From positions 1 to 64,000 of IMG/VR virus record IMGVR_UViG_3300025065_000001: DNA of 64,000 nt; one strand, 5' to 3'. The notes under the pieces are model-generated. The model made no database searches. It had not been told where the DNA came from and worked only from the letters and a program-made list of their open reading frames with translations. Below are positions 1,626 through 55,981 of the stretch, in pieces; the stretch's first letter is position 1, and each line of letters begins with the position of its first letter. The position numbers and the translations under genes were made by a program. This stretch comes from a virus.

Positions 1626-1645
1626 GGGGGAGAACATTCCCCCCT
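1626..1645 (-). repeat. GGGGG/CCCCC hairpin, copy 1
   Basis: Near-palindrome of G5-6 and C6 arms around a central AACATT, overlapping the stop codon of the upstream 62-aa gene and preceding the next start signal. One of eight copies confined to the first 9 kb. It could act as a transcription attenuator, an mRNA 3'-end stabiliser or a protein/RNA-binding site; no U-run follows it. Confidence 0.85.
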
Positions 1646-1832
1646 AAATCACGCTAATTATTACTGGTTCACGGTTAAAACATTCCGAGCAGATATTCTT
1701 GCTCGAACCCATCAACTCAAGTTCCATTTCTATCGCACGGCGTCTCGAGTCACTTATCTTTGACTGGCAATTTGAACAATGCGAGTCAGCCTTTGCCGGA
1801 ACAAGGCCCTTTAATCCGTGTAAACTACTCAC
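1644..1832 (-). CDS. Small zinc-ribbon-like protein
   Basis: 62-aa protein not assigned to a named family. Two Cys pairs, CSNC at about residues 19-22 and CSEC at about 48-51, are spaced as in a zinc ribbon, with a charged helix between them. Its start overlaps the end of the preceding gene by 8 bases, so translation is probably coupled. Such small treble-clef or ribbon proteins are common in phage early regions, where they bind nucleic acid or host proteins; the role here is unknown. Confidence 0.7.
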   Translation of the reverse strand: MSSLHGLKGLVPAKADSHCSNCQSKISDSRRRAIEMELELMGSSKNICSECFNREPVIISVI

Positions 1833-2022
1833 CGTGTAAATCTCTATGTGTGCTTAACCGGCCAAGACGAACTTCAACTTCAACCGTTACCGAAAACTTC
1901 TCCGCGATAGAGGTACCAAAGTTATCCGCTTGGTGAACGTTAGAGGCCAAGCACTCAGCGGCACAGTGATTCACACGCTTACCGCGTCGGTGGTCAAATA
2001 GCACTACTGTGAAATATTGCAT
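1825..2022 (-). CDS. Hypothetical protein, 65 aa
   Basis: Not recognised. Starts at an ATG preceded by a clear AAGGAG ribosome binding site; the TTGACGAT motif lies a further step upstream (2040-2047), so here motif and start codon are separated. The protein has a hydrophobic N-terminal strand (QYFTVVLF), Cys/His residues around 19-24, and a beta-rich C-terminal half. It overlaps the following zinc-ribbon gene by 8 bases. Confidence 0.65.
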   Translation of the reverse strand: MQYFTVVLFDHRRGKRVNHCAAECLASNVHQADNFGTSIAEKFSVTVEVEVRLGRLSTHRDLHGE

Positions 2023-2049
2023 GTGATATTTTTCTCCTTATCGTCAATT

Positions 2050-2310
2050 TTAATCGTTAGGTTCTAGGTCTAAATACAACTGCCAGCGAAAACCGGCTGC
2101 AGTTTCGAAAAACAATAACTGGCCTGTTTGGTCGCAGTATTCTTTTCTAAGCGTTTCCTCAAAGGAATCACACTTAATAAAAGTCTTGTCGAACTCCGTA
2201 ATAGCTTCAACGCGGCCATGAAATATCTTCGGTGGCCAGAAACTAAATTCCTCCGAACTTGGCTTACGACACACAATCATGTGGACGTTTTTATTCTTCT
2301 TCTTTGGCAT
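2050..2310 (-). CDS. Hypothetical protein, 86 aa
   Basis: Not recognised. I chose the ATG at 2310 (MPKKKNKN) because a strong GGAGG lies nine bases upstream; a longer open frame exists but reads back through the preceding gene without a ribosome binding site. The N-terminus is Lys-rich, followed by an alternating hydrophobic/aromatic pattern (FSFWPP, FRWQLYLDL) suggesting a small beta-rich domain. It overlaps the upstream gene by 20 bases in another frame, as in a tightly packed operon. Confidence 0.65.
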   Translation of the reverse strand: MPKKKNKNVHMIVCRKPSSEEFSFWPPKIFHGRVEAITEFDKTFIKCDSFEETLRKEYCDQTGQLLFFETAAGFRWQLYLDLEPND

Positions 2311-2710
2311 CTTCAAAGTCCTCCAAACGTTCGTTCCAGTCTTCTTGATACAGTGAGAAGAAAATAGCCTGTAGTGCGGTATCATCCGATAAGCACGCGG
2401 CTTTACCCGCACCACCACAATCGGCATCGAGCGCTCGACTTAATTCATCGGCACAATTGATAGTGAGAACCGCAACTTGAAATTCGGCCTCGGGATCATC
2501 AGGGTCCACCCAAGTTAGATTTTCCATGATGTAGTCGTGAATGGTGTATTTACCTTCAACGAACTCCATCCAGCCCCATTCTTCATCCGCTATGATGTAA
2601 TGAATAGGCATACCCGAACTGACTCTTTCGGGGATGTTGTAGAACGCTATATCCTTATCCGACAAAATCTCTTCGGAGGTGTAACGGTGTGGGTGTGGTT
2701 GGTTACTCAT
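2291..2710 (-). CDS. Hypothetical acidic protein, 139 aa
   Basis: Not recognised. Begins at the ATG of the TTGACGATG signal. The protein is strongly acidic, ending in a run of Asp/Glu, with several Trp residues in the first half and a Cys-containing segment (CGGAGKAAC) near residue 100. There is no membrane segment. It overlaps the preceding gene by 8 bases. Highly acidic early phage proteins are sometimes DNA mimics that inhibit host nucleases or restriction enzymes; the charge is seen, the role is only a possibility. Confidence 0.65.
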   Translation of the reverse strand: MSNQPHPHRYTSEEILSDKDIAFYNIPERVSSGMPIHYIIADEEWGWMEFVEGKYTIHDYIMENLTWVDPDDPEAEFQVAVLTINCADELSRALDADCGGAGKAACLSDDTALQAIFFSLYQEDWNERLEDFEDAKEEE

Positions 2711-2924
2711 CGTCAATTTCCTCTCCAATTTTTCCCGCTTCTAGTAACTTGCGGTACTGCACTACGTTCTCAGGGTTATAGTCCATCAAACCAAAGGACT
2801 TCTCCCCCGTTTCTAAACAAAGGGCAGAGCCATAAACATTTAGGTTTATCGACTCAAGGTAAGTGATAACTTCAATAAGCGTCTTGTTTCTGGGACGCTT
2901 TATCTTCGGCGTGTCTTCACTCAT
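2703..2924 (-). CDS. Hypothetical protein, 73 aa
   Basis: Not recognised. Start chosen at the ATG forming an ATGA overlap with the stop of the upstream gene, so translation is coupled. The N-terminal 15 residues are basic (PKIKRPRNK); the rest is predicted helical and acidic, ending EEIDDE. It belongs to the continuous leftward train. Confidence 0.6.
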   Translation of the reverse strand: MSEDTPKIKRPRNKTLIEVITYLESINLNVYGSALCLETGEKSFGLMDYNPENVVQYRKLLEAGKIGEEIDDE

Positions 2925-3409
2925 ACGTCTACGGCCTCCGCCCAGGCTTTTTCGAACACCATAGAAGGGCAAGTATCATTACACCCTTGGTCATAGCGCC
3001 GAATAATCGCGTCTTCCTGAAAAATACAGTCTACAATTTCATACTGAAGATGCCTTGTTATATCGTGTATCAAAACACTCGGAACCATCTCACCATAAAA
3101 TTCACGTCTACACTCTACAGCCCGTATAATCTGACCCGAAGGACCATAATGCCGACCCGTGTTCCACTCCATACGGCGCATTTTTCTAGACTCATCCTTA
3201 GTCACTTCTTCAGGGTAACAAGACCACGACGTTTCACTCAGGCCAAAGCCTTGTTGTCGGTCAATTTCAGAAACCGGTAGGTCCGCCGCAACATGGTTAC
3301 CATACGCTTCAGCAACGTCATAATCGCTAGCCATCACATTAGGTAAAACAAGCTGTCGGCCCGTATCGCTCTCTTCGAGCACTATTTTGAATTCTTTTAA
3401 GTCGCTCAT
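2921..3409 (-). CDS. Hypothetical protein, 162 aa
   Basis: Not recognised. Begins at the ATG of the start signal (MSDLKEFKIV). It is soluble and acidic, with mixed alpha/beta character and several Cys residues in the second half (CRREF, CIFQ, CNDTC) but no regular Cys-x-x-Cys pair. Stop and next start overlap as ATGA, placing it upstream in a coupled pair with the 73-aa gene. Confidence 0.65.
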   Translation of the reverse strand: MSDLKEFKIVLEESDTGRQLVLPNVMASDYDVAEAYGNHVAADLPVSEIDRQQGFGLSETSWSCYPEEVTKDESRKMRRMEWNTGRHYGPSGQIIRAVECRREFYGEMVPSVLIHDITRHLQYEIVDCIFQEDAIIRRYDQGCNDTCPSMVFEKAWAEAVDV

Positions 3410-3444
3410 CGTCAATTTCCTTCTAGTTAATTACCGGACGTTTT

Positions 3445-3702
3445 TTAAAGATACTTTTGTAAAACCAGAGCGTCTTCGGGTGTTAATACTTGGCAACTAA
3501 TCACCGAATAATAAAATTCCCAGTTCATATCTGAAATTCCCCCCTCCACCCACTCAGCGGTACCATCTTCTAAACTACCGTGACACTCACCGAGAAGCGC
3601 CAAAGCACAGGCTTCATTCTCTGATTCAGCGTGTCGTAAAGTAGTCGCACTTTTTTCGTACTCACCCGACCTAATTTTTAATTTCACCGCATAAAATTTC
3701 AT
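3445..3702 (-). CDS. Hypothetical protein, 85 aa
   Basis: Not recognised. The true start is the ATG in the repeated signal (MKFYAVKLKI), not the longer upstream frame. The protein begins with a beta strand and then a KSATTLRHAES segment and a helix with Ala/Leu. The layout recalls small phage proteins of the type in which a strand-rich N-terminus packs on one helix. It overlaps the upstream zinc-ribbon gene by 32 bases. Confidence 0.6.
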   Translation of the reverse strand: MKFYAVKLKIRSGEYEKSATTLRHAESENEACALALLGECHGSLEDGTAEWVEGGISDMNWEFYYSVISCQVLTPEDALVLQKYL

Positions 3703-3850
3703 CGTCAATTTCCTTAAAGTTACAATAAACTGGCCCTTCATCAGGGGCCATAAAGTCAATTTCTGGGTAGGTAGCAAACTCGCAGTGCTCAACCGTTTTG
3801 TACCCCTCACCTAGCATGGTGCCACCACACTTTTTGCACACTTGGCGCAT
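3671..3850 (-). CDS. Small Cys-pair (zinc-ribbon-like) protein
   Basis: 59-aa protein starting at an ATG in the variant signal GGTTGACGATG. It opens MRQVCKKCGGTM, a Cys-x-x-Cys-Gly-Gly knuckle typical of zinc ribbons, with further Cys at about 23, 43 and 54, so a second metal ligand pair is possible. A GGGGG/CCCCC hairpin lies just upstream, between it and the preceding gene. Function unknown. Confidence 0.65.
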   Translation of the reverse strand: MRQVCKKCGGTMLGEGYKTVEHCEFATYPEIDFMAPDEGPVYCNFKEIDDEILCGEIKN

Positions 3851-3867
3851 CGTCAACCTCCAAAAGA

Positions 3868-3887
3868 GGGGGGGAATGTTCCCACCC
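3868..3887 (-). repeat. GGGGG/CCCCC hairpin, copy 2
   Basis: Inverted repeat with G7 and CCCACCC arms around AATGTT, lying directly after the stop codon of the upstream gene (stop at 3888-3890). Same family as copies at 1626, 4904, 5758, 7152, 7968, 8199 and 8978. Confidence 0.85.
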
Positions 3888-4376
3888 TTATTCTTCTTCC
3901 TGTTCCGCTTCCTCACGCTCCCAGCGTTTTAGTTCACGCTCTTTGAAGGCCAGCACATACTTCATGTACTTCAAGGTTTCCTTAGCCTCGGGCTCATCTT
4001 TGTGTAAGTGCTCAAACTCAAGGTCGGTTTCTGGTAGATAATCAGCGGCATGTTGATATCTTTCGTAAGCTTTACTTGCAAAAACCGAATAACCCAAATC
4101 CCCGATTTCGTGCAACAAGTCGTCGGCAATATCCTCAGCGGTTTCCGCCGCTCGGAAATAAGGCATATCCACATTCAAGTGTTTCTGAATTTTAGGGCTC
4201 ACCGCACCATAACCAACAACACAGGCCGGAGTGCCGCAAGTGTGAATGTCCACAGCTTGGTCTGCGGTATCCCTATCCAAATAGTAATCATCCATCCGAA
4301 AATCTAGGTCAGACGCAACCACTTGTTCCATGGTCTCGATTAATAGTCTTAGCAGGGGAAAATTATTAGTACTCAT
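3888..4376 (-). CDS. Hypothetical phage protein with CGTPAC motif, 162 aa
   Basis: Unnamed family. The start overlaps the stop of the RadC-like gene as ATGA, with GAGGTGA as ribosome binding site. The N-terminal half contains HTCGTPACVVGYGA (about residues 45-58), a Cys-rich motif I associate with a recurrent group of uncharacterised phage proteins; the middle has an acidic helix (AETAEDIADDLL), and the C-terminus is a long charged helix ending in Glu repeats, probably a coiled coil. Translational coupling to the JAB protein suggests the two are made together. Function unknown. Confidence 0.7.
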   Translation of the reverse strand: MSTNNFPLLRLLIETMEQVVASDLDFRMDDYYLDRDTADQAVDIHTCGTPACVVGYGAVSPKIQKHLNVDMPYFRAAETAEDIADDLLHEIGDLGYSVFASKAYERYQHAADYLPETDLEFEHLHKDEPEAKETLKYMKYVLAFKERELKRWEREEAEQEEE

Positions 4377-4861
4377 AAGTCACCTCGTTGAGCAAGAGAA
4401 ATAGTGGGACAGCCTTGGCCGTTGCCTACGATGATGTGATCGAGTAACGGCACATCGATAGCCGACAACGCCTGTTTAATATCTTGTGTCAAACGAATAT
4501 CGGCTTGGCTTGGCTCGGGATAACCCGAAGGATGGTTATGTGCAATTATCAACGCCGCAGCATTCAGCTCTAAAACACGACGAATAATCTCACGAGGGTA
4601 AACCGAGGCTGAGTTTATCGTGCCCTCAAACAGGATTTCACCGCTAATCAAACCATGCTGGGAATCTAGAAATAAGCAAAGAAAACGTTCGCGAGAACCC
4701 TCGCACAGCTGCAATGCACAATAGTCTTTACATGAGCCAGCGTCGGATATCTTAGAGCGGCCATAGAAGTCAGGCTGCTTCTCACGAATGATGTTTAGCG
4801 CTCGAGTGATAGCGCGTTTCTCGGTAGGGGTGTAAGGACCACAATCCGTTAATTTAGTCAT
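4373..4861 (-). CDS. RadC-family JAB/MPN domain protein
   Basis: 162-aa protein of the RadC (JAB, JAMM-fold) family. The metal-binding signature is complete: a Glu near residue 79, His-x-His in AHNHPSG at about 107-113, and Ser118/Asp121 in PSQAD. RadC proteins carry a zinc JAMM centre like eukaryotic deubiquitinases; despite the name no repair role is established, and they are frequent in phages, plasmids and islands, often near anti-restriction genes. The N-terminal helix-hairpin-helix part of full-length RadC is absent; only a short helical leader precedes the JAB domain. The start codon is the ATG three bases after a one-base variant of the start motif. Family call firm; substrate unknown. 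Confidence 0.92.
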   Translation of the reverse strand: MTKLTDCGPYTPTEKRAITRALNIIREKQPDFYGRSKISDAGSCKDYCALQLCEGSRERFLCLFLDSQHGLISGEILFEGTINSASVYPREIIRRVLELNAAALIIAHNHPSGYPEPSQADIRLTQDIKQALSAIDVPLLDHIIVGNGQGCPTISLAQRGDL

Positions 4862-4903
4862 AGTCGTCAATTTCCAATTTTTAAAAGTTAATTACCAAAT
4901 CAA

Positions 4904-4921
4904 GGGGGGAACATTCTCCCC
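4904..4921 (-). repeat. GGGGG/CCCCC hairpin, copy 3
   Basis: G6 and CTCCCC arms around AACATT, 8 bases past the stop codon of the gene ending at 4930 and about 40 bases before the next start signal. Confidence 0.85.
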
Positions 4922-4929
4922 TTCACACC

Positions 4930-5424
4930 TTAAGCGGCGTCTTTCGCTCTTACCTCGAGCATGGCCAGGAGATAATCGGCGTAGCTGATAAAATCGTCTA
5001 GGTATTCACTACCCAGATACAACCACGCAAAGCTTTTGATTTTATCGCGGTCAAGTCCTATACCTTCAGCCGAATACCGGCGAATGTGGATATTGACACC
5101 CAACAGCGAATCAATCATCAACGAGCCCATTTCAAAATCATCCAGCACAAGGCTCACTTCTTCCACCAAGGCACAGATAAACGCAGACTCAATCAACATC
5201 CAGTGCGAATACTCCCAGCCCATTAGGGTTCGAATCTTCGCGTCACGGACACAGTAACCCTCGATTGTGGTGTGTGGCGTGTCTTTGGTTATCGGCTGGA
5301 GGTTATCAATCGAGGCGCGAGAGCCTTCATCTTCACCCTCGATTGTCATAGCCAAACGACCACAGTTTCTCGCCGTATGTGCAACCGCAATCATACGCCG
5401 GAAAATAGGCAGATTTTTACTCAT
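4930..5424 (-). CDS. Hypothetical protein, 164 aa
   Basis: Not recognised. Start chosen at the ATG at 5424 (MSKNLPIF), which overlaps the end of the upstream gene by 8 bases and has GAGGA upstream; the longer open frame runs antisense-free through the neighbour without a ribosome binding site. The protein is soluble, acidic and mostly helical in its C-terminal half, with a conserved-looking WYLGSEY-like aromatic patch near residue 140. It ends in a short Lys/Asp/Ala tail. No domain can be named. Confidence 0.65.
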   Translation of the reverse strand: MSKNLPIFRRMIAVAHTARNCGRLAMTIEGEDEGSRASIDNLQPITKDTPHTTIEGYCVRDAKIRTLMGWEYSHWMLIESAFICALVEEVSLVLDDFEMGSLMIDSLLGVNIHIRRYSAEGIGLDRDKIKSFAWLYLGSEYLDDFISYADYLLAMLEVRAKDAA

Positions 5425-5722
5425 CGTCCGCTTCCTCAGGCTCTTCGAAAGCCGTGAGGTCATACCCCATATCGTAGAGCTCGTCGATAATTTCACCTTT
5501 CCGACGGGCGATAATCTCCTGAAACCAGCCGCCACTCACATTGAAAGGGCCAACACAAATTTTATCAGTCCTGTGAATAGCCAACGGATAATCTCGGTCA
5601 AGATGAACCGTGCCTTGTAAATCACACAACTTTTTCAATTCATCCAAAAGAGAAATAACCCGCACACAATGTTTCATAAGTCTCGAATTTAACATCGTAC
5701 TATTAGTCACTTTTTTACTCAT
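5417..5722 (-). CDS. Hypothetical protein, 101 aa
   Basis: Not recognised. Start is the ATG two bases beyond the TTGACGAT motif (TTGACGATTATG), with a weaker ribosome binding site than its neighbours. Helical N-terminus (residues 10-35), a central strand region, and a strongly acidic C-terminus (EEPEEADDE). Stop and the next start overlap by 8 bases. Confidence 0.65.
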   Translation of the reverse strand: MSKKVTNSTMLNSRLMKHCVRVISLLDELKKLCDLQGTVHLDRDYPLAIHRTDKICVGPFNVSGGWFQEIIARRKGEIIDELYDMGYDLTAFEEPEEADDE

Positions 5723-5757
5723 AATCGTCAAAATCCAAATTTTAAAAGTTAATTCTA

Positions 5758-5779
5758 GGGGGGGGGAACATTCCCACCC
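5758..5779 (-). repeat. GGGGG/CCCCC hairpin, copy 4
   Basis: G8 and CCCACCC arms around AACATT in the 112-base spacer between two leftward genes, about 55 bases after the stop at 5835. The remainder of the spacer holds the AT-rich leader and the start motif of the next gene. Confidence 0.85.
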
Positions 5780-5834
5780 TTCAAATTGCGGTTTTTACCC
5801 CGTTTTGGGTTTTTACATCCAAAGTGCGGGTCAA

Positions 5835-6221
5835 CTATGCCGATTCTCGCGCCGCAGCGCCACCACGAGAAGACTTCTCGGTGAATTCGTCCTTACCTAG
5901 CACCTTCTCCATTGCACCCGCTGAGGATGCGATAGAGGCCGCGCATTCAACACCGCAGTTAAAGCCAAAATCGACCAGTTTTTCAACCACTGAAAAGTCC
6001 AGTTCGAGTTCGCGAGACAATGCTTGAGTACGACGGTACACTTCGCCAAGGTCGTCAGTACCCTTGAGTGCATCCGATTTTCGGTAGAGGCCAATGAGAC
6101 ATTCGATTTGCTTGGCTTTCATCTGCATGACGTATTCAGCAATCTCTCGCTGAGTTTGGCGCATGAGTTCGTGAGGGGAGGGAGCAGTCTGGTTCACAGG
6201 CTGGGGAATGGAATTAGTCAT
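5835..6221 (-). CDS. Hypothetical helical protein, 128 aa
   Basis: Not recognised. First gene of the leftward train after a strong promoter. Start is an ATG two bases past the motif (GGAAATTGACGATATG), so motif and start are in slightly different register from most copies. The N-terminal 20 residues are Pro/Gln rich; the remainder is predicted to be almost all helix, with heptad-like spacing from about 22 to 75 and a Gly/Ala-rich C-terminus. It may form a coiled-coil oligomer. Role unknown. Confidence 0.7.
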   Translation of the reverse strand: MTNSIPQPVNQTAPSPHELMRQTQREIAEYVMQMKAKQIECLIGLYRKSDALKGTDDLGEVYRRTQALSRELELDFSVVEKLVDFGFNCGVECAASIASSAGAMEKVLGKDEFTEKSSRGGAAARESA

Positions 6222-6810
6222 ATCGTCAATTTCCTAAGTTAATTAATCGGCTCACGCCGTAACACCCCGTAGGGCGGATTTCAGTTATACAAGGGCAAAA
6301 TACCCGAGTCAATTGCAATGGTCTAATTTCGACCAAAAACACAATTTGGGTGTGATTCACTCCCACGGTGGTTTGTTGCACGTTGCGACAGTGAGCACCA
6401 CAAGCGAATTCAAATTCCAAGACGCGCAAAGGTTACAGCTCGTCACGCAAAGGTCGTTGGGTAGATCACTGCGACTTGCAGCAAGTCACAAGGAGTAACG
6501 AGGACATTGTGTGTAAATAAACCTCAGGTACGAATTAAATCGAAAGCGAAGTTTTTAAAAGTATACTTCTTAAAAAATGTTCCCAGTAAAATATATAAAT
6601 GTACATTTAATAACGAAAGTTTGTGGGAACATTTTTGTCACCGGCTCTGTAGGCCTTATTCTACACGGCATTGCGAGTAATAATTACCCTCACCGAAGTT
6701 ACGCGTAACTGGTCAAAATTCGCACAGCTACAGGCCGCATTCTACCGTTTTGAGAAATCGCAAAAATGGCTGAGAAAGTTTATGGGAACACAAAACCTAA
6801 GTTATTGTAT
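6222..6810. other. 589-base non-coding region with promoter and 16-bp repeats
   Basis: No convincing gene: short open frames on both strands lack ribosome binding sites and read as low-quality sequence. It holds a leftward promoter (6284-6312) and two of three direct copies of the repeat AAAGTTTRTGGGAACA (6616-6631 and 6775-6790; the third, 6870-6885, is inside the next gene), plus an inverted half-site TGTTCCC at 6578-6584. An AT-rich stretch spans about 6530-6640. This looks like the control region of the left-arm early operon. Confidence 0.6.
6284..6312 (-). promoter_or_regulatory. Sigma70-type leftward promoter
   Basis: On the minus strand: -35 TTGACT (6312-6307), a 17-base spacer, and -10 TATAAC (6289-6284). 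Both boxes match five of six consensus bases and the spacing is ideal. Transcription would begin near 6277 and run into the gene starting at 6221 and the train of small genes beyond it. Confidence 0.7.
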
Positions 6811-6885
6811 CTAGGCACTTAAGTTGGGCTTGTGTGTGACTTTTGAGGGTTCTACACCAGTTTCGCCAAAAAGTTTATGGGAACA
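6616..6885 (+). repeat. Three direct repeats AAAGTTTRTGGGAACA
   Basis: Copies at 6616-6631, 6775-6790 and 6870-6885 agree at 15 or 16 of 16 bases, spaced 159 and 95 bases. The GGGAACA end is the same heptamer found in the arms of the GGGGG/CCCCC hairpins. The pattern suggests operator sites for a repressor or activator of the leftward promoter; no binding protein is known. Confidence 0.7.
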
Positions 6886-7119
6886 GGTGTTAACTGGCTC
6901 TGGAATGTCCGTTTGCGCCAGTCTAATTGCTGTGCTCATTTCGCAAATCAACAACATTTGGTGATGCTTTGCTACGTGTTCTGGGTCTAAATTGCCCAGC
7001 TCCATGACTCTCACACCCTTCAATTCTAGCGTGCCAATCTCGTATTGTAGCTTGCCATATTGGAGGACAACCACTGGCTTAGGCCAGCCAAAACCTATCG
7101 AAACGTTCTTAAATTTCAT
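6811..7119 (-). CDS. Hypothetical protein, 102 aa
   Basis: Not recognised. Starts at the ATG of the repeated signal (MKFKNVSIGF). The first half is beta-rich; a DPEHVAKHHQM segment and a helix follow, and the C-terminal 25 residues are polar. One of the AAAGTTTRTGGGAACA repeats lies within its 3' part, so the gene overlaps control sequence. Confidence 0.6.
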   Translation of the reverse strand: MKFKNVSIGFGWPKPVVVLQYGKLQYEIGTLELKGVRVMELGNLDPEHVAKHHQMLLICEMSTAIRLAQTDIPEPVNTCSHKLFGETGVEPSKVTHKPNLSA

Positions 7120-7151
7120 CGTCAATTTCCTGTAAAAATGTGCTCAAAAGA

Positions 7152-7170
7152 GGGGGAGAATGTTCCCCCC
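7152..7170 (-). repeat. GGGGG/CCCCC hairpin, copy 5
   Basis: GGGGGAGAATGTTCCCCCC, between the membrane-protein gene ending at 7395 and the start signal at 7118. The 275-base spacer also contains a CTAG-type tract near 7383-7397; no gene is seen in it. Confidence 0.85.
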
Positions 7171-7394
7171 TGAAGCCCTTAAATTAGGCTCGGTTTTGAG
7201 GTTAAGGCGAATACCTGTAGCCTTAAAATACTTTACACGACCCTTGTAGAGGTCCTATATTCTCATGCGAGAAGCTTGGATAGAGGCTTGAGGGTTGGAA
7301 TCGGCGCTGCTCCTATTTCCGCGCTGTCAACCCTCGATTCGAATTTTTTGTCCTTTTTTCTCGAACCAAAAACCACCAGCCTCGATTCTAGATT

Positions 7395-7628
7395 CTATTT
7401 TTTAGAATGAAAGCGCACTTCCACCAGCCGAAAATTACTTCTTCTGTCTAGAGTCTCTGCTTTGAGGGTCGCTACGGAGATCAAAAACAACGGCACACTG
7501 GCGTAACTTGATACCTCAATTAAGCCCAGGCCATCGGCACTCGTAATGAGTACCGTGAACCCAGCCACCAGCAACATAAAATGCACCATAAACGCAATAA
7601 ATAAAGCTATATCTGTACGTGTAATCAT
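7395..7628 (-). CDS. Small membrane protein, 77 aa
   Basis: Two predicted transmembrane helices: about residues 6-30 (IALFIAFMVHFMLLVAGF) and about 41-54 (SVPLFLISVATL), then a basic, polar tail (RRSNFRLVEVRFHSKK) that should face the cytoplasm, giving an N-in/C-in hairpin. The start sits in a one-base variant of the signal, TTGATGATG; I take the second ATG by analogy, though the first (7631) is equally possible. It overlaps the stop of the upstream gene. It could be a superinfection-exclusion or host-membrane protein, but this is only a guess from topology and early position. Confidence 0.65.
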   Translation of the reverse strand: MITRTDIALFIAFMVHFMLLVAGFTVLITSADGLGLIEVSSYASVPLFLISVATLKAETLDRRSNFRLVEVRFHSKK

Positions 7629-7630
7629 CA

Positions 7631-7948
7631 TCAATTTCCTAAAACGTGTGGGGGATACTTCCCGTTGGGGTTGAGGTTAGTATCATGGTAAATTTCCATA
7701 AACCTACGAACTTCTTCACACTCAGCAACACCTTCTTTATCGAGGTTATAAATCACAACTGTTCCTAGAACCTCAGCTATATCACTACCATAACGATTGG
7801 TATTTCTAATTAGACGACGCCAGAGAGAGATAATCTGGCGGGTAGTCCCTACAATGGTGGTTGTCTCTTGTTTAGTGCGTGCTTCATAGTCATTAATACG
7901 TATCTTCAACCAAGCCGCGTTTTTCTGCTTTGTCGTATCTATTTTCAT
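7631..7948 (-). CDS. Hypothetical protein, 105 aa
   Basis: Not recognised. Start ATG at 7948 with AAGGAT upstream; this is one of the few left-arm genes lacking the TTGACGAT motif. N-terminal 50 residues are Lys/Arg/Thr-rich and helical with an aromatic patch (SLWRRLIR); the remainder is mixed. It lies just downstream of hairpin copy 6 and is coupled to the membrane protein by overlap. Confidence 0.6.
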   Translation of the reverse strand: MKIDTTKQKNAAWLKIRINDYEARTKQETTTIVGTTRQIISLWRRLIRNTNRYGSDIAEVLGTVVIYNLDKEGVAECEEVRRFMEIYHDTNLNPNGKYPPHVLGN

Positions 7949-7967
7949 AATTTTAATCCTTCAAATC

Positions 7968-7986
7968 GGGGGAGAATGTTCCCCCC
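7968..7986 (-). repeat. GGGGG/CCCCC hairpin, copy 6
   Basis: GGGGGAGAATGTTCCCCCC in the 280-base spacer between the genes at 7948 and 8229. The same spacer contains a CTAG-rich tract (about 8062-8090) and an intrinsic terminator. Confidence 0.85.
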
Positions 7987-8146
7987 TAAAAATCGCCGCG
8001 ACAGTCACGGCCCTGTAGTTGCCCAAATTCCCTTCACGCGAATTGCTATCACAATCCACCAGCCTAGACCCTAGACACAAGAGCCTAGGCACTGGCACAC
8101 ACCACCAGCATAGGTAGGCACGCGCTTAATAGCCTCGTGAAAAATA

Positions 8147-8183
8147 AAAAACCGATTAGCACTAGCCGTGCTAATCGGTTTTT
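8147..8183 (-). terminator. Bidirectional intrinsic terminator
   Basis: A perfect 12-bp stem ACCGATTAGCAC / GTGCTAATCGGT with a 5-base loop, flanked by an A-run on the left and a T-run on the right, so it can terminate in both directions. It lies about 45 bases after the stop of the 238-aa gene and should end that leftward transcript. Confidence 0.85.
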
Positions 8184-8198
8184 CGTTTCTCGAATTGA

Positions 8199-8216
8199 GG
8201 GGGGAATGTTCCCCCC
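8199..8216 (-). repeat. GGGGG/CCCCC hairpin, copy 7
   Basis: GGGGGGAATGTTCCCCCC, 12 bases past the stop at 8229. A canonical terminator follows at 8147-8183, so this hairpin is probably not itself the terminator. Confidence 0.88.
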
Positions 8217-8228
8217 GTCCCGCTGGGC

Positions 8229-8945
8229 TTACTTGTTAAGTTGCTTTTCAAGATCCTTTTGAATCTCAAGCGATAGGGCAAGCATTGCTTTGCTAACCTT
8301 GGCGCGGTGTGCCTTAGGTAAACCGGCCGCGTCTAGCGCTTCAAGTTGGTTATTGATTAGCGCTTGAGTGTGATCCTCAAGCTTAGAAACAAGAGCCATT
8401 ACCGCGCTAGATACATTATCATCAGCAGCACGCTTTGCCGCGCCGCCTTCTTTATCCTTGCCCTTTACAGGCGTGCTTTTCGCGTCTTTGCTTGGCTTTT
8501 CTTCTTTCGCTTCTTTAGGCAAGTATTCACCTAAAAAGTTAAGCCATTCAACGCGCCCTTGAGGAGCACCGTTTTCGCCGTAAATATCCGCGTTTAATAC
8601 CTTGTCACCGATTTGCGCAAAGGTGCCATTTAACTCGATCGTTTTGATTGAGTCGAAAAACTTGGTTAGATATTGACGGTTATCATTTACGAATTTCACG
8701 TATGTTTTCCAGTAACCTTTTGCTTGGTTGTATAGGCGTGAGCTGTCGCGGTTGGCTTTTGTACGTTGGTTAGCTGGCACGCCGTACAAGTCACAACAAA
8801 GCGCGATGTTTGCACCTTGTTCCATGTTGTGTGCTACGGCATAGCACGCAATAGCCATTTTAACGGCTGGCACACGTAGATCATTCTTATCAGCAGTAAC
8901 AAGAGCAGAAGCAAAAACAGAAGCGTTAAAAGTGGTAGTAGTCAT
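8229..8945 (-). CDS. Hypothetical DNA-metabolism-like protein, 238 aa
   Basis: Not recognised. It stands alone as its own transcription unit, with a good promoter (9034-9063), the start motif and a strong terminator, suggesting high early expression. The N-terminal domain (about residues 1-135) is Ala-rich and mixed, with CYAVAHN and CCDLYGV segments; a Lys/Glu/Gly-rich linker (about 145-175) follows; the C-terminal 60 residues are helical and amphipathic, probably an oligomerisation helix pair. Domain-linker-helix layout recalls phage single-strand-binding or anti-host proteins, but no motif supports either. Confidence 0.7.
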   Translation of the reverse strand: MTTTTFNASVFASALVTADKNDLRVPAVKMAIACYAVAHNMEQGANIALCCDLYGVPANQRTKANRDSSRLYNQAKGYWKTYVKFVNDNRQYLTKFFDSIKTIELNGTFAQIGDKVLNADIYGENGAPQGRVEWLNFLGEYLPKEAKEEKPSKDAKSTPVKGKDKEGGAAKRAADDNVSSAVMALVSKLEDHTQALINNQLEALDAAGLPKAHRAKVSKAMLALSLEIQKDLEKQLNK

Positions 8946-8977
8946 AATCGTCAATCCTTAAAAGTTAATTTGTTGGT

Positions 8978-8994
8978 GGGGGAATGTTCCCCCC
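8978..8994 (-). repeat. GGGGG/CCCCC hairpin, copy 8
   Basis: GGGGGAATGTTCCCCCC near the promoter and start motif of the 238-aa gene; the rightmost member of the family and the only one not following a recognised gene. Confidence 0.85.
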
Positions 8995-47954: not shown

Positions 47955-49979
47955 TTAAACAGCTACGCGGTTCTCGGCATCTAGTTCTTTATGTGATGCC
48001 TGTAAAACCTGTCCGATATGAGGCGTGATACGTTGGATACATTGCCATGTGAAGCTGGCTCGTGTGTCGTCCATCGCGCTATCAATCTCGTCTAACATCA
48101 TTAAAGGTAATACACGGTGAGTCAAAATACGACCTAAACCTATGCGTAGCGTTAAATTAGCAAGGTCTTTACCCGAACCTGATAGCGTTCTTAGCGGCTG
48201 GCCATCAACAACAACCTCGAAATCCTGTCCCACTTCAACGGACTGGAATTCGCCACCGGTCATTTCACTCATAAGCATCGAGGCCACTTTATTAAGCGAA
48301 GGCAATAGGTGACTCTGAACCTTAGCTTTCACCACTTTAAGTGCTTCACGGGCCCGAGACAGTTCCGATAAACGCTCTTCCTCGGCAGCTACACCATCAA
48401 TACTTTTATTATAGGTGGCCAAAGCCTGTTCGTACTGCCCCGAAAGGTGCTCGTAGTTCGCCCATTCTTGACGGGCCGACTCTAGTTGGCTAATAACATT
48501 ACGTAAGGTCGCTTCAGTATTCTCAGGGAATTGCTGTGTAATACTGTTAAGCGTTTCTTGCGCTTGGTCATACCTAGCTGTAGCCTCAGCATAAGCTTGC
48601 ATTAAACCTTCAAAATGCGTTGCTTGACTGTCATACATCCGCATCTGGTTATCATACTGGTCTTTTATCCGCTTACAGGTACCTTCCCAGTTCTTAATTT
48701 GCTGGTCATTCATCTGAGAAATATTCGATACATGGCTCTTATAGTCCTTGTTCTCTTTCTCAAACTGCAGTATTGCAGACTTAGCCGTGCGAACTTCATG
48801 AAGCGCGGTTCTCAAATCATCAATATTTAAGCTCTGCAGCTCTTCTAATACCGTGTCATGCCTCTTGTTTATTTCAATTTGGGCAGCGATATCATTCCAT
48901 TGCTTAATGGTTAAGCTCGGTGCCTTTTCCCTTAAACGTAATTTTTCCAGTTCTGCAATCTCTGCCGACAAATGGAAGTGATGGTTACATTTAGGACACT
49001 CAATCGTGTGTGAAGCCTTGAGCTCTTGGATACGAGTATAACGCTCGTGTTCGGCCCAAGCTTCATAAAGCTCTCCTATTTCGGGCCACTCGGCGTTAGG
49101 TTCACAAGGCTTGTACTGTGCCTCGAGACGCAAGAACTCAGCTTCAACCTTCACCGCTTTATCAAGGTTATTCTGAAGGTTCAGTTCCACGGTGGTTAAC
49201 TGGGATACTGTGCTTGGCATACCGTTAGTTAACGTCGGGAACTCAGGGGCTTTCATCGTAGGCGATAGAAGCTGTGGTTTTTCTGGGTAAATCGGCTCTT
49301 CGGGTTGTACAGGTTTTGTTGGCTCCGTTGGTACCGAGACCGCTTTTGCCGTTAACCAGTTCTCAAGACTTGTTTTATACGTTGCTAGCGCATTCTCGAT
49401 ATCGGCCTTAGGAGTTTGAGGTTGAGTCGGCGCCACAGGTTCTACCAAGTTCTTTTTGTGAGTGTCGATAACCGCACGCAGTTCTCTAATCTCTCCGGCC
49501 ATATTATTAGCAAGCCCATCCATCTGTGTAAGGCCAGCTACCGAATCAATCATTTGTTTACGTTCAGTTGGGCGCATATCCGCAAGCGCTTGGATATCAC
49601 CTTGAGCGCACCAGTGAGCAATACGGAATACATCAAAGCCATAACCCAGGGTTCTAACTACCCACTGATTTACAGGCTTGGTACCACTTACGATAGGCTC
49701 ATTTTTATGGAAGACTTCAGACTTAGATTTGGTACGGTTGATAGTGTACGTCTCGCCATTGATAGCAATAACAACCTCTACCTTCATTCGCTTGTAATCG
49801 CCAGCAATGCCGCGTAGTGCTTTGTTACCGAAGAGGGCAAAGCCTACCATTTCAAAGTTAAGTGATTTACCTTTGCCGTTCGCTCCGGTGATCAAGGTCG
49901 AACCCGCATTTAGTTCCAACTCGTTTTTAATTGTTTTGCCGTTCGAGAACGTTAAGTCATATTTAATTAAAGAAAGCAT
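47955..49979 (-). CDS. SbcC/Rad50-like recombination ATPase (gp46-type)
   Basis: 674 aa. Walker A GANGKGKS at 32-39, long coiled coils on both sides of a zinc-hook Cys-x-x-Cys (CPKC, about 326-329), an ABC signature LSGSGKDLANL (about 595-605) and Walker B LMMLDEIDSAMDD (about 624-634). It pairs with the Mre11-like protein next door, to resect ends for recombination-dependent replication, as T4 gp46/gp47. Start ATG overlaps the upstream stop (TAATG). Confidence 0.93.
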   Translation of the reverse strand: MLSLIKYDLTFSNGKTIKNELELNAGSTLITGANGKGKSLNFEMVGFALFGNKALRGIAGDYKRMKVEVVIAINGETYTINRTKSKSEVFHKNEPIVSGTKPVNQWVVRTLGYGFDVFRIAHWCAQGDIQALADMRPTERKQMIDSVAGLTQMDGLANNMAGEIRELRAVIDTHKKNLVEPVAPTQPQTPKADIENALATYKTSLENWLTAKAVSVPTEPTKPVQPEEPIYPEKPQLLSPTMKAPEFPTLTNGMPSTVSQLTTVELNLQNNLDKAVKVEAEFLRLEAQYKPCEPNAEWPEIGELYEAWAEHERYTRIQELKASHTIECPKCNHHFHLSAEIAELEKLRLREKAPSLTIKQWNDIAAQIEINKRHDTVLEELQSLNIDDLRTALHEVRTAKSAILQFEKENKDYKSHVSNISQMNDQQIKNWEGTCKRIKDQYDNQMRMYDSQATHFEGLMQAYAEATARYDQAQETLNSITQQFPENTEATLRNVISQLESARQEWANYEHLSGQYEQALATYNKSIDGVAAEEERLSELSRAREALKVVKAKVQSHLLPSLNKVASMLMSEMTGGEFQSVEVGQDFEVVVDGQPLRTLSGSGKDLANLTLRIGLGRILTHRVLPLMMLDEIDSAMDDTRASFTWQCIQRITPHIGQVLQASHKELDAENRVAV

Positions 49980-51004
49980 TATTCCGCCTCCGCGCTTAGG
50001 TCCATAAACTGGCCCCAAAGTTGATTCGTAGTTTCAGTTGAAACGTCGTGTTCCGCCATTGTCGATTTGAAGATGCCTTCTAAGTCGAAGCTATCGAGGT
50101 TAACTTCCAGTTCGTCGTCTTTATTTTCCGACACGCGTTTGAAAGTCAGGCTCAAACAATCCACTTCGGCAATCGGGGCCTCCGTTGGTAGAAGCGTGAT
50201 TCGAAGGTTCATGTTTTTGAACTTATCAGGGTCAGCTTCTAAGGCCGTGGTTGCTTCTTGAAGAGAGAGCGTTATGTAGAGCTGGTTATTTGGGTCCTCG
50301 GCATGCGAGTAGGGTTGCATAGAGCCGGTAACCCAGACTGGCGTATCACCTTCCATAAAAATACGGGGTGTATGATAGTGGCCAGTGATAACCGCAAGTG
50401 CGGTTTGCATTTCTTCAAACGGGATCAAGTTATCTGTCGCTGAGCTATCTTCACTAAAAGCAAGAATGTCCCAATGGCCAAAGGCGAAGAACCCTACCGG
50501 TGGCTTAATCTCGGCAGCAATTTCTTTCGCAGTTTTAAAGGGGTGCCACGGGTAGAAAACAAAATGCTCTTTCTCAATGGTTAGGTAAAGGGCCTTTTCT
50601 GCAACTACGTGAATATTTGGCACATGAGCCACAAGCTGTGTAAATACATCAAACGAGCTCTTGAACTGGGTGTCCCTCGAGGCATCATGGTTGCCGCGAA
50701 TTATCACGAACTGACGGTCACGGTAAGTGCTGGCCGCGAGACGATAAACGTCGGCCGCAAATAAAATATCTTCTTCAGGAACGCGAAACTTATCAAACAA
50801 GTCTCCCATACAAACGTGAAGCTTATACCCTGGCGCATTTACAATGCCGGCAAAGGTATCTTTCACCATTTCTTCGCGCTCACCTTTGCGGTGTGTAGGC
50901 ACGCCAGTATTGAATTTACGTGCTAGGTGAGGGTCACCTAACGTCTGAACAAAAGAGGGGAGTTTAATTAAATCGTTTAGCGATTCGATTGGTAACATTT
51001 GCAT
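49979..51004 (-). CDS. SbcD/Mre11-like nuclease (gp47-type)
   Basis: 341 aa calcineurin-like phosphoesterase. Motifs GDLFDK (about 66-71), GNHDASRD (about 100-107), GHWDI and GHYHTPR (metal-binding His pair) are visible. It is the nuclease partner of the SbcC-like ATPase and is translationally coupled to it. It starts at the motif. Together they process double-strand ends during replication and repair of phage DNA. Confidence 0.93.
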   Translation of the reverse strand: MQMLPIESLNDLIKLPSFVQTLGDPHLARKFNTGVPTHRKGEREEMVKDTFAGIVNAPGYKLHVCMGDLFDKFRVPEEDILFAADVYRLAASTYRDRQFVIIRGNHDASRDTQFKSSFDVFTQLVAHVPNIHVVAEKALYLTIEKEHFVFYPWHPFKTAKEIAAEIKPPVGFFAFGHWDILAFSEDSSATDNLIPFEEMQTALAVITGHYHTPRIFMEGDTPVWVTGSMQPYSHAEDPNNQLYITLSLQEATTALEADPDKFKNMNLRITLLPTEAPIAEVDCLSLTFKRVSENKDDELEVNLDSFDLEGIFKSTMAEHDVSTETTNQLWGQFMDLSAEAE

Positions 51005-51014
51005 CGTCAATTTC

Positions 51015-51393: not shown

Positions 51394-51801
51394 TTATCTC
51401 CACGTAAATTGAAACTGCGTGAGTTCTTCAAAACGCATAGACTTCTTAGGCCAGCTTAGAATTAGGGATGCTGGTACTTTAAACCAGCCATCAATACTTA
51501 TGAAATGGAGGTAGAAATAGTAGAGGCCCCCAGCTTTGGTTACCTTGGTTGCTTCGCGCCATTGACGTTTCTCAATTCGAGAGAAATCAAAGCGTGAACT
51601 TTCAGCAATACTTTTTACTTCCGCGTAGGCCGTTAAACCTTTTTCGGTAACAAGATAGTCTGAGGGTTTTGATGAAACGATACGTTTGCGAACGCGAGAC
51701 TTGTTTACATCAGCATGGTCTTCGAAGCGATATACATGAGCGCCCAGCGCTTTCATATTCTCTTCGAAGATATCTTCGGAGGGTTTACCAGTGTTTTGCA
51801 T
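51394..51801 (-). CDS. RecU-like PD-(D/E)xK nuclease (Holliday-junction resolvase candidate)
   Basis: 135 aa of the size of RecU-type resolvases. SDYLVTEKGLTAYAEVK (about 48-64) holds the D-x(n)-E-x-K core, with a further Arg/Gln-containing helix (IEKRQWREATKV) and YYFYLHF strand typical of the family. A resolvase beside a gp46/gp47 pair fits recombination-dependent replication. Other small restriction-like nucleases of the same fold cannot be excluded. Start at the motif. Confidence 0.75.
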   Translation of the reverse strand: MQNTGKPSEDIFEENMKALGAHVYRFEDHADVNKSRVRKRIVSSKPSDYLVTEKGLTAYAEVKSIAESSRFDFSRIEKRQWREATKVTKAGGLYYFYLHFISIDGWFKVPASLILSWPKKSMRFEELTQFQFTWR

Positions 51802-51826
51802 CGTCAATTTCCTAATTGTATAAAAC

Positions 51827-52333
51827 TTATTTTGTTTTATTTAGAGTTAATACTCTTTTAGGTTTATCACCTTTATCATCTGATGTTGACTGGCGTGTGC
51901 CGCGTCCCACTTTCTGATTTATGATAATCCCTTGCTTCTTGTTCTTACGTCGAGAGCGTAAGTACATAGAATGTAGTTCAACCATTCTCTTACGAGCATG
52001 GTCTGCTTCGGATTCGGTTACTCTACCGTCAGGCTTTCCCCAGAGGTTAAAGCGCTGGGCACCAGTACGAATACGATTGAGGTATTTTATAGAATTAACG
52101 TGAAAGCCTATCGCATCGTATAGTTCTCTTGAGCTGACTTTCTTAGGAGAAATAACCGCACGAAGTTGCTCATAAATATCCCTACTTAACGGTTTGTTAG
52201 TTAAGATTCGGAATTTATTTTTACGACAATAGGTGACCACCCAAAGCCAGCAATGGATAGGTTTTTCAAATTGTAATTTTTTAGAATTATATTTAAGGCT
52301 TACACCTTCAATTCCAAAAGTGGCGTTATCCAT
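51827..52333 (-). CDS. ProQ/FinO-family RNA-binding protein
   Basis: 168 aa. Residues about 25-120 carry the ProQ/FinO domain pattern: helix PLSRDIYEQLRAV, then SSRELYDAIGFHVNSIKYLNRI, then GAQRFNLWGKPDGRVTESEA and DHARKRM. These match E. coli ProQ's [22 protein letters not shown] order. A basic C-terminal tail (RSRRKNKK) could extend RNA contact. Such proteins bind RNA hairpins, mostly 3' terminator stems, and promote sRNA-mRNA pairing. The motif variant at 52340 lies just before its start, followed by TTGAGC and ATG. Confidence 0.84.
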   Translation of the reverse strand: MDNATFGIEGVSLKYNSKKLQFEKPIHCWLWVVTYCRKNKFRILTNKPLSRDIYEQLRAVISPKKVSSRELYDAIGFHVNSIKYLNRIRTGAQRFNLWGKPDGRVTESEADHARKRMVELHSMYLRSRRKNKKQGIIINQKVGRGTRQSTSDDKGDKPKRVLTLNKTK

Positions 52334-52359
52334 GCTCAACTCGTCAATTCATATTTTAA

Positions 52360-52381
52360 AAAGGCTCCTAGTGGAGCCTTT
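52360..52381 (-). terminator. Terminator after the primase-helicase gene
   Basis: AAAGGCTCC and GGAGCCTTT arms with a TAGT loop; the minus strand continues into TTTTAAAA. Ends the long leftward replication transcript before the ProQ gene, or reads partly through. Confidence 0.8.
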
Positions 52382-52427
52382 ATAATTATTATATTAATTA
52401 ATAGGTATTATGCTTAATAATACAGCG

Positions 52428-55400
52428 TTATGCAACGTTAGTAGTAACGACAAACAATTTATTATTAAGTAAGTTGATAAGTCGGTTTTGAATTTCTGGA
52501 TGTAATTTAGAAATATATGGATGTAATTCAGAAACTTGCGGAGACCCAGCCAAAGCTTGAAATACATAGGCTTTCAAATTTCCTGGCACTTCTTCAAGAC
52601 CTGTGAACATCGTACTGTGGGAGAGCTCTTTAGCCCTTCTCACATCCTCAACCCAGCGATTAAAACGTTCATCATCTAAATAATATTTATAAACTGAACG
52701 GACACCTACACGTTTCTTTTCTCTACGATATTTCATACCAAACGAAGTAAGAACGCGGCGAACGAACTCATGACGCTTCTTGTCGGTATCACATAAAGGC
52801 ATGCGGATACCTTGAAGGATTTCTAAATCCCTTGCATGGGCTAATAGAAAATCAAAAGCGCGGTCTTTTTCTAAATCCGTTATTTCACGGCCATCGTAGG
52901 TGGGGATATCATTTAGAAATATCACACCTAAATGGTAGAAGAAGCCACGGCCCAAGCCTTGGTGATCTGCAAACGCCGTTTTATCTTTATCGTGTCGCTT
53001 AGTATCAAAGCGGTTAATCATATCGATAAGGAACAGGTCGTCATTGTTAGCACCCAGCATCAAACCCTTGCGTCTACCATTGAGAGCCTGTGTTGACATA
53101 GTAACTACATCGTTCAGTTCATCCCCAGCCTCGAGGCCAAAGAGTCGCGCTTGGCGTTTCTTAAGTAGCTGGCGTTGTTCCTCTGCGTTTTTCAAAGTCT
53201 GGTTATCTAAAATTTCAAATTCTTCGTCCGTTAACAGCTCAGTATCCCTAAGCTTTTGTTTTTCAACTTCTCGAATCTGATCTGTTAGTTCATCCATCAA
53301 CATTTTCAAATTGTAGCCCTCATCCGAGGCCAGCGTATAAAGCGTGTTAATGTTGTAACCTTCATTTTCTAAAGCGTTTATCAAATTTTTAGAAAAGTGA
53401 TTGAGTTTATTATTTTCAAAACTCTTAAGTTGGCCATACCAGTCTGACCAACCATGGTCGTTTATTTTCAAACGTTCTGTTGCATAATCATATTCAGAAA
53501 TAAACTGCACGCAGAGTTTGTTATCTATAGTGTTACGGTTCCCGTATATCTCTTTTTGAACGATTTCTAAAGGCGCGGTTGGATAACGTCTCGCGTTATC
53601 GAGGTACATAACATGGTAGTCGGTACATTCACGAACGCGGCTCATATGCTGCAAACAATCCGAAGGTAAATTACCCGCCATCTTTGTGAAAAACGCGAAC
53701 GTCTTTTTAAAACGCGCTCCGGCTGCGGTAGCATCGATGGAGTGACCGGTACCCATAGAAGGTGAAGACATAAAAATATCATCGTCTCTCAGATTGCCAT
53801 TCAAGTCTCGAATAAAGGCTTGTACTTCTGGGGTCTGGGAATTGTTACTCGTTATTGTGATAACGCGACGACCATTAATCTCCGTCATGAAGTGTTCGTG
53901 CTCTAGCTGGCTATCTCCACCCATTTCCTCAATAATTGTGGCCGCTTTCTTAAGTACGTCCACTTTAGAATTTGAAGCATAGAATAGGCCTGTAGTCTTG
54001 GCCTCACACATCAAAGCTTCTACGAACGCTGAAGTATCCCCTTTACCATCGGTATCTTGGTACAGCGTCACTTGGCGCTGTTGCTCCTTTGCGGGACGGT
54101 ACTTATTAACGATAACGTTAATCGTGCGGTCTTCAGGAAGGATACCAAATTGCGGGTCTCTCATTAGGTCCACGAACTCTTTGTTTAAGTCAGCATCCAT
54201 ACAGATTACGAACTTGGCCCCAGCGATAATCTCACGTAAGACTTTTAAACATGCGGCCGGTTTATCAACGGTTGTTGCTTTAATCGCACGCACAAGCTGA
54301 CAAACCTCATCCATGATCACAATGTCGTAGTTCTGACCTTGCAGCTTGTATATCGAGTTAAGACAAATACCTAAGCGCTTCTGCATACGTAACGAGTGCA
54401 GCCGTTCGCTTTCGATTTCGTTATAGTCTGCAAGATTGAACTGCTTAGAGAGTGAGTTAACCAACGAGATTAGCTGGCTGATAGCGATAACTCGACCATC
54501 AAAGTCTTGTACTTGTTGCTTCAACATATAAGTCTTACCGGTACCTTTCTCACTTTTTACCAGTGTAATACCTGGTCGTAGTCGTAGCTCCGGTAGATAG
54601 CGTTGGTCTATTACCATAGCTTTATTATCAAATTCTTCCAGTCTAGATTCGGTGGCCTCGGTCTTACTCATAAAGGTTTCAATAGACTCACGCAGCTCAA
54701 AGTTTCGCTCCCCCTCCACAAACGAGTGAATCGTAGGATTGTAGTCACCGTAGCGGCCAGCGTTAGCGTAGAACTTGGCTTTTGAATAACCTTTCTCAGG
54801 GCGTAGTGGGTCTTGTAACTGAGCGCCATCATAAAGCGTTGGATTTAAGAACGCTTCAAGCACACTGGTAATACGACCATCTTCAAACTCAAGAATATCG
54901 GCAGGGTGAAGTATTTTGTTCTCATGTGCCTTAACAATCTTCATGGCCTCGTCACGAGAAAGCGGCATCTGAGTATAATGTGTCGTGTTCACCATTCGCT
55001 GAACTTTGATTTCTCTGAATTCAGAGACACGGTTTATAACATCCTCAGATTGCTTTTCCAGCTCAACCACACGACGGAATTCTTTATCTTGGGTTGGGGT
55101 GTAGTCTTTGAGTAGTGTGGTTTTTAACGAGCGCTTACCTCTTCGGTTAATCTCACCTTTTGGTAACTTCTGGTAGAACGATTCTTTTAGTTTGATGAAG
55201 GCACCGGCTTCGAAACATAGACGTTCAGGCTGGAAAACCGAGGTATCAAAAATCGTTCTTGGTAGTCGTCCACCGCTAGCACTTACTTTAATGTGGCCTA
55301 ACCCAGCCATCCAGCAGCGCTTCTCAAGCATTTTACCAAACCGAGCAATATCTTCCCCTTTATCAACGAGCATATAAATGTGGAAGCCATCCGCAGGGCG

Positions 55401-55931
55401 AATTACTTTATTGGTTTCTTTGTCAAACAATGACGTTGAAGTACTGTAAGTTCTGATATAGTCCGTGTTGTTTAGTTCTAATTCTGGAACCGCACTATTC
55501 AGATGAGTTAGGAAATCTTCAGGATTGGTGATTTTTAGCTTAGCGTGCTCGTCTTTATCATAATCGAATAGGATTAGACTTGGACCTTTTGTGATCATAG
55601 ATTTCGAAGAACGTGTGCCATACACACCGGTTTCATCTACGTGCACTGGGTATTCATAGCCACGGCGCTCAAACTCGTTACTGGTTAGGACCTCTACAAA
55701 CTCGTGGTCCGTATCCATAACGCCAGGGGTAAAACACTGGTTAGGCTCTAAGCTTTTTATAAAATCGGGTAACTGTGAGAGTGTTAGCTGCACTCGTTTT
55801 GCTGTACCTGTCACCATCTTAGGTGCATCACTTACAATTTTACCATGCTCCATTCGTAGCTCTTTGGTGAGCACTCCGGTGGAGTTCGTAAAAAGTGTCA
55901 GGTAAAACGGTTGTTCTACTTGGTTAGCCAT
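52428..55931 (-). CDS. Primase-helicase (CyRepA1/herpes origin-binding-like)
   Basis: 1,167 aa. The N-terminal part (about 100-260) has AEP primase marks: LFDYDKDE (about 122, Asp-x-Asp), DGFHIYMLVD and ERLCFEAG. The central part (about 450-780) is a helicase: Walker A SEKGTGKT (about 460), Walker B IMDEVCQL, and motifs FMSSPSMGTGHS and QHMSRVRE. This matches the origin-binding, CyRepA1-type replication proteins of plasmids and phages. It probably primes and unwinds at the origin. With the P4-like protein at 9.7 kb the phage has two primase-helicase proteins. Confidence 0.85.
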   Translation of the reverse strand: MANQVEQPFYLTLFTNSTGVLTKELRMEHGKIVSDAPKMVTGTAKRVQLTLSQLPDFIKSLEPNQCFTPGVMDTDHEFVEVLTSNEFERRGYEYPVHVDETGVYGTRSSKSMITKGPSLILFDYDKDEHAKLKITNPEDFLTHLNSAVPELELNNTDYIRTYSTSTSLFDKETNKVIRPADGFHIYMLVDKGEDIARFGKMLEKRCWMAGLGHIKVSASGGRLPRTIFDTSVFQPERLCFEAGAFIKLKESFYQKLPKGEINRRGKRSLKTTLLKDYTPTQDKEFRRVVELEKQSEDVINRVSEFREIKVQRMVNTTHYTQMPLSRDEAMKIVKAHENKILHPADILEFEDGRITSVLEAFLNPTLYDGAQLQDPLRPEKGYSKAKFYANAGRYGDYNPTIHSFVEGERNFELRESIETFMSKTEATESRLEEFDNKAMVIDQRYLPELRLRPGITLVKSEKGTGKTYMLKQQVQDFDGRVIAISQLISLVNSLSKQFNLADYNEIESERLHSLRMQKRLGICLNSIYKLQGQNYDIVIMDEVCQLVRAIKATTVDKPAACLKVLREIIAGAKFVICMDADLNKEFVDLMRDPQFGILPEDRTINVIVNKYRPAKEQQRQVTLYQDTDGKGDTSAFVEALMCEAKTTGLFYASNSKVDVLKKAATIIEEMGGDSQLEHEHFMTEINGRRVITITSNNSQTPEVQAFIRDLNGNLRDDDIFMSSPSMGTGHSIDATAAGARFKKTFAFFTKMAGNLPSDCLQHMSRVRECTDYHVMYLDNARRYPTAPLEIVQKEIYGNRNTIDNKLCVQFISEYDYATERLKINDHGWSDWYGQLKSFENNKLNHFSKNLINALENEGYNINTLYTLASDEGYNLKMLMDELTDQIREVEKQKLRDTELLTDEEFEILDNQTLKNAEEQRQLLKKRQARLFGLEAGDELNDVVTMSTQALNGRRKGLMLGANNDDLFLIDMINRFDTKRHDKDKTAFADHQGLGRGFFYHLGVIFLNDIPTYDGREITDLEKDRAFDFLLAHARDLEILQGIRMPLCDTDKKRHEFVRRVLTSFGMKYRREKKRVGVRSVYKYYLDDERFNRWVEDVRRAKELSHSTMFTGLEEVPGNLKAYVFQALAGSPQVSELHPYISKLHPEIQNRLINLLNNKLFVVTTNVA

Positions 55932-55981
55932 CGTCAATTCAATCCAAATTGTAGCGGCCCTCTAAGTGAGGGCCGACTTCA

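Follow-up and report, generated by a model that had tools for sequence, protein, structure and literature searches.

A ProQ/FinO-family protein encoded between primase and resolvase genes in a phage lineage

The 64,000-nucleotide stretch of viral DNA analysed here (the window) carries a gene whose 168-aa product is confirmed by sequence comparison as a ProQ/FinO-family protein, and the survey of its relatives shows proQ to be a core, syntenic gene of a phage lineage. The source record, of 80,544 bases, also carries genes for an integrase, DNA polymerase A, RdgC, a replicative primase/helicase, a terminase, a portal and major head proteins, a content that points to a tailed, probably temperate phage, which is probably also of marine type. 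The features referred to below are collected in Table 1. As to function, we give somewhat better than even credence to a FinO-domain RNA chaperone that would serve the replication/recombination module, tuning phage transcripts via tailed hairpins.

Table 1. Features of the proQ region and repeated elements (coordinates in the window)
Feature	Coordinates	Strand	Remarks
proQ-like gene	51827..52333	minus	168 aa, from the ATG at 52333 to the stop ending at 51827; FinO domain ~ residues 46-122; basic tails
Degenerate start element TTGACGAG (intact form TTGACGATG)	52340..52347	minus	six bases upstream of the proQ ATG
Terminator-like hairpin AAAGGCTCC-ACTA-GGAGCCTTTTTA	52356..52385	minus	inverted repeat between the primase/helicase gene and proQ
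Replication protein	52428..55937	minus	1169 aa; primase N-terminal half and Herpes_ori_bp-type helicase; upstream neighbour of proQ in the relatives read
RecU-like Holliday junction resolvase	51394..51807	minus	phrog_843 (E 3e-20), PF03838; 19 bases downstream of proQ; start element intact
SbcD-like nuclease subunit	49979..51010	minus	phrog_100 (E 2e-21), PF00149
SbcC-like ATPase	47955..50018	minus	AAA_23 and SMC_N matches
Palindrome GGGGGGAAYRTTCYCCCC, eight copies	1626..8994	minus	centres near 1635, 3877, 4912, 5769, 7161, 7977, 8207, 8985
Repeat CAACTACGCAAGGAGCA, copies	62282-62314, 62562-62594, 63180-63212, 63850-63882	minus	start-associated

The phage protein and its predicted RNA-binding face

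The alternative start listed for the proQ frame, a TTG at 52339, is TCG in the corresponding position of two relatives (L005 and L006), the ATG being therefore the likelier start, and the plus-strand frame across the same coordinates is interrupted by stops throughout. The Pfam model ProQ (PF04352) recognises the protein with 48.9 bits (cut-off 27, E 7e-13), its PHROG match is the unnamed phrog_21591 (E 4e-9), and a single-sequence search of the PDB retrieved 5nb9, the N-terminal domain of E. coli ProQ (E 1.6e-6). With a profile built from seven sequences of the family, the PDB matches were ProQ (2e-9), Legionella ProQ (2e-6), RocC (7e-6), FinO (3e-4) and also NMB1681, and nothing outside these proteins was retrieved at E 0.01. 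The product is strongly basic (38 K+R against 15 D+E), and comparison of the window with L005 (dN 0.062 against dS 0.857; dN/dS ~0.07) indicates that it is under purifying selection.

The FinO domain is what the phage protein has in common with E. coli/Salmonella ProQ (PF04352; PDB 5nb9), with 29% identity over the shared domain stretch and equivalents of Pro33, Leu57, Tyr70, Gly77, Arg80 and Gly85, all of which, together with those of Ser53 and Ser67, are invariant across the aligned lineage members. RNA binding by E. coli ProQ depends critically on Tyr70, Arg80, Lys54 and Arg58, and for one RNA on Lys35 (PMC7192607). Tyr70 and Arg80 correspond to Tyr84 and Arg94 of the phage protein, neither of which varies in the aligned members, whereas the equivalents of Lys35, Lys54 and Arg58 are other residues in the lineage (mostly Ser or Ala; Ser; and Tyr, Asn or Phe, respectively). 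The binding face of the lineage proteins can therefore be regarded as related to that of E. coli ProQ but altered; these three basic residues are no requirement for membership of PF04352. AlphaFold, run on six sequences, gave two models, both with low confidence (mean pLDDT 54 for the full-length protein, 67 for the domain), in which helices and a beta-hairpin follow one another in FinO-domain order. Fold searches of the PDB with these models ranked RocC, FinO and NMB1681, all of them FinO-domain structures, first at values that are not significant (best E 0.06-0.15, TM-score ~0.3).

The altered basic face, and the strongly basic character of the protein and its tail, are what might be expected if the FinO domain had been recruited to replication/recombination itself, binding, for example, structured DNA, RNA primers or R-loops in the company of primase, RecU and SbcCD, and not to sRNA-type regulation; the invariant position of the gene between those for primase and resolvase fits this explanation as well. 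However, the two residues equivalent to ones with a key part in RNA binding, Tyr84 and Arg94, never vary in the aligned members, and no FinO-domain protein is known to us to act as a DNA-repair enzyme. We regard such a recruitment as quite improbable.

Gene order in the lineage and in other phages

Relatives were collected with three baits, namely ProQ, primase and SbcD. PF04352 scored above its cut-off, in single copy, in 12 of 12 lineage records (the window's own and that of Pseudoalteromonas phage KB12-38 counted), and since four of these had been collected through neighbour genes, the presence and position of proQ is not circular for them. The order primase/helicase, proQ, RecU-like resolvase was found in every stretch read, with SbcD and SbcC next in the longer ones, and this synteny holds down to ~35% protein identity among phages of roughly 76-91 kb that carry an integrase. 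A more distant primase record that was also checked (G011) lies outside the lineage; it has no ProQ, and its identity is 24%, extending along no more than a part of the protein. Scans of genome contigs with ProQ and with primase yielded no relatives, and megablast of 20 kb against phages no match. An earlier note had proposed a phage-encoded protein of the ProQ/FinO family standing between recombination and replication genes, and both parts are borne out, the first by the PF04352 score and the PDB matches to ProQ, RocC and FinO chains, the second by the primase/Herpes_ori_bp protein upstream and RecU and SbcD/SbcC downstream.

Some details of the neighbouring genes are worth recording. The SbcC-like protein probably starts at an ATG near 49980, which is conserved in L003-L006. 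In L003 and L004 an additional 164-aa gene with a start element (7324-7818), absent from the window, lies ahead of sbcD. A 75-base direct repeat, 81% identical (window 47628-47702 and 47846-47920), lies at the starts of two adjacent small frames, which look like a tandem gene duplication.

The strict linkage to replication/recombination genes in the relatives bears on a second alternative, in which host RNAs are the main targets of phage ProQ, which would compete with or replace the ligands of host ProQ/Hfq in takeover or lysogeny, while its location merely sets early expression. The phage protein is much shorter than E. coli/Salmonella ProQ, without the long linker and C-terminal domain, and a small FinO-domain protein of this kind would suit such a function; moreover, host global ProQ regulons hold many mobile-element RNAs (PMC9977716). 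The phage gene differs from that of E. coli and Salmonella also in lying within a replication block, and its linkage suggests a role in that module; a principal action on host RNAs is, in our view, unlikely.

Phage-encoded ProQ is genuine but not unprecedented. KB12-38 shares with the window the order primase, ProQ, resolvase, SbcD, SbcC, and the GenBank note of its protein (ASV44004.1) already reads PFAM-ProQ; it differs in its other palindrome family and in the protein itself, with 37% identity. FinO-domain proteins are likewise encoded by Sodalis phage phiSG1, Shewanella phage KASIA and Aeromonas phages LAh_6, LAh_8, LAh_9 and 4_4572, and for phiSG1, KASIA and the LAh phages an annotation as ProQ/FinO family or RNA chaperone already exists. 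Unlike the proQ described here, these belong to other phage lineages, and where the gene context was read (KASIA, LAh_8 and phiSG1) the gene is not beside primase and RecU. The sole plasmid match by tblastn was one of 32.5% over 80 aa on one Serratia plasmid. To the known cases our analysis adds one in which proQ belongs, in conserved gene order, to the core of a lineage.

Start elements, palindromes and hairpins

The earlier note also pointed to a standard start-site element and many standard hairpins and put forward, as a hypothesis, a phage-specific RNA regulation in which ProQ would be the binding protein; the two kinds of repeat are real. The first, TTGACGAT, has 34 copies in the window where 2.0 are expected (positions 645-61957, both strands), mostly as GGAAATTGACGATG at gene starts, and is found lineage-wide, with variants such as ATCGACGATG in L034. 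The copy attributed to proQ as its own stood only in part: it exists (52347-52340) but in the degenerate form TTGACGAG, and most relatives' proQ genes have none, no start element being found in the proQ leaders of L001, L010, L034, L044 and L048 or ahead of proQ in KB12-38. Within its block, proQ belongs to the small number of genes that have no intact element, the elements of its neighbours being mostly intact or near-intact. A second start-associated repeat, CAACTACGCAAGGAGCA, which contains a ribosome-binding site, precedes several small genes.

The palindrome GGGGGGAAYRTTCYCCCC, with its GGGGG run, is present in eight copies in the window against 0.02 expected, and in four further copies in the record (75363-79625); the window copies are mostly 21-42 bases upstream of a start element, and for the five close records the distance from the palindrome centre is usually 21-38 bases. 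This arrangement resembles the SAS/ESAS of Cluster K mycobacteriophages, where a short repeat at many translation starts is accompanied, just upstream of a subset, by inverted repeats whose consensus varies between subclusters (PMC3203893), the function of SAS/ESAS being unproven (PMC3203893; PMC12699233). The window phage likewise shows a start-codon repeat and upstream inverted repeats with a consensus varying between relatives; it differs in that sequence and host group are unrelated and in that its element precedes structural genes too, e.g. those for the portal and the major head protein. A strong terminator-like hairpin, consisting of a near-perfect 24-base inverted repeat and T-rich sequence, lies at window 8139-8191; G001-G004 retain it, on the downstream side of a G-run palindrome.

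Five of the eight ProQ-bearing records searched have the GGGGG hairpin, and the three more distant ones own other palindromes, GGTGGGGAACTCCCCACC in G006, CGGGGTAACGTTACCCCG in KB12-38 and GGTGGGTAAAGTTACCCACC in G005. The idea that proQ tracks the GGGGG hairpins was accordingly rejected because these three records are without that sequence, a rejection softened by the other palindrome families that they have. Among the imperfect pairs of the GGGGG family on the gene strand, G.U outnumbers A.C by 28 to 8 cells (~7 against 2 independent sites), an excess that is suggestive of an RNA hairpin but comes from too few independent sites (~nine). Equally, the palindromes may be DNA operators, bound by a regulator of the phage; in the rest of the record there are reading frames that, judged by eye, are helix-turn-helix-like.

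These data bear directly on the claim that ProQ is the dedicated binder of the GGGGG hairpins and start-element leaders, controlling accessory genes through both. In its favour, hairpins and start element are non-random, every ProQ-bearing relative examined in depth has repeated palindromes of its own, and the G.U bias is of the kind that an RNA hairpin would prefer. However, no GGGGG palindrome lies less than 20 kb from proQ (window copies at 1.6-9.0 kb, record copies at 75-80 kb), the palindrome sequence is fully different between relatives while proQ stays, and the motif of proQ itself is damaged or absent. Furthermore, the palindromes are found upstream of start codons, whereas FinO-domain proteins usually bind 3' ends, operators of a phage regulator account for them just as well, and the G.U bias comes from a small number of sites. 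The claim is not supported, and we consider dedicated binding of this kind very unlikely. Less probable still is a self-contained RNA control operating lineage-wide, in which the core FinO-domain protein of the phage would read the rapidly diverging leader hairpins together with the start elements and thereby time accessory and replication genes. Hairpins and proQ co-occur in the lineage, and nothing ties the two functionally.

A different structure, the hairpin at 52385-52356, would be the first candidate as a ligand for the FinO domain. For the proQ leader the fold z-score is -3.1, and the pairing of the hairpin is kept with G.U changes in L004-L006; among the other proQ leaders compared, L007 has a different hairpin, L001 has none at this place and none is obvious in L010. 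No Rfam family and no antisense RNA was found in the window. A general excess of terminator-like hairpins was considered and rejected: near proQ, in the window's replication half, they number 18 where chance gives 18.1, and at 1-20 kb they are slightly in excess (29, with 20.8 by chance, sd 5.1).

Proposed role and its precedents

Terminator hairpins with 3' tails are reported ligands of FinO/ProQ proteins, and the family is generally linked to DNA metabolism, plasmid FopA controlling the replication gene repZ through antisense RNA (PMC9977716). This precedent, together with the fixed place of proQ beside the primase gene, makes control of replication/recombination our best guess. By analogy with the family, the phage ProQ would bind terminator-type, short hairpins with a single-stranded 3' tail on phage transcripts; once bound, these would be stabilised or helped to pair with a small or antisense RNA, which would tune the dosage of proteins for replication and repair, much as FopA does for its target. 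The likeness to plasmid FinO/FopA lies in a FinO-domain protein carried by a mobile element, the difference in that no antisense RNA partner was found in the window.

In favour of this chaperone function we count PF04352 in all lineage relatives, PDB sequence matches that are confined to the FinO family, the synteny, the low dN/dS (~0.07) and, as a weak point, the fold searches placing RocC, FinO and NMB1681 first. Against it count the lack of Rfam and antisense hits in the window, terminator hairpins at chance level, other residues in place of Lys35, Lys54 and Arg58, a proQ-upstream hairpin that L001 lacks and that is not evident in L010, and the low AlphaFold confidence.

Plasmid FinO-domain proteins are well studied; by contrast, the literature searched yielded no study on the function of one encoded by a phage. 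A lineage that keeps proQ strictly beside primase and resolvase genes is a well-defined setting in which to study the purpose of a phage RNA chaperone, and KB12-38, as a named isolate, provides a starting point.
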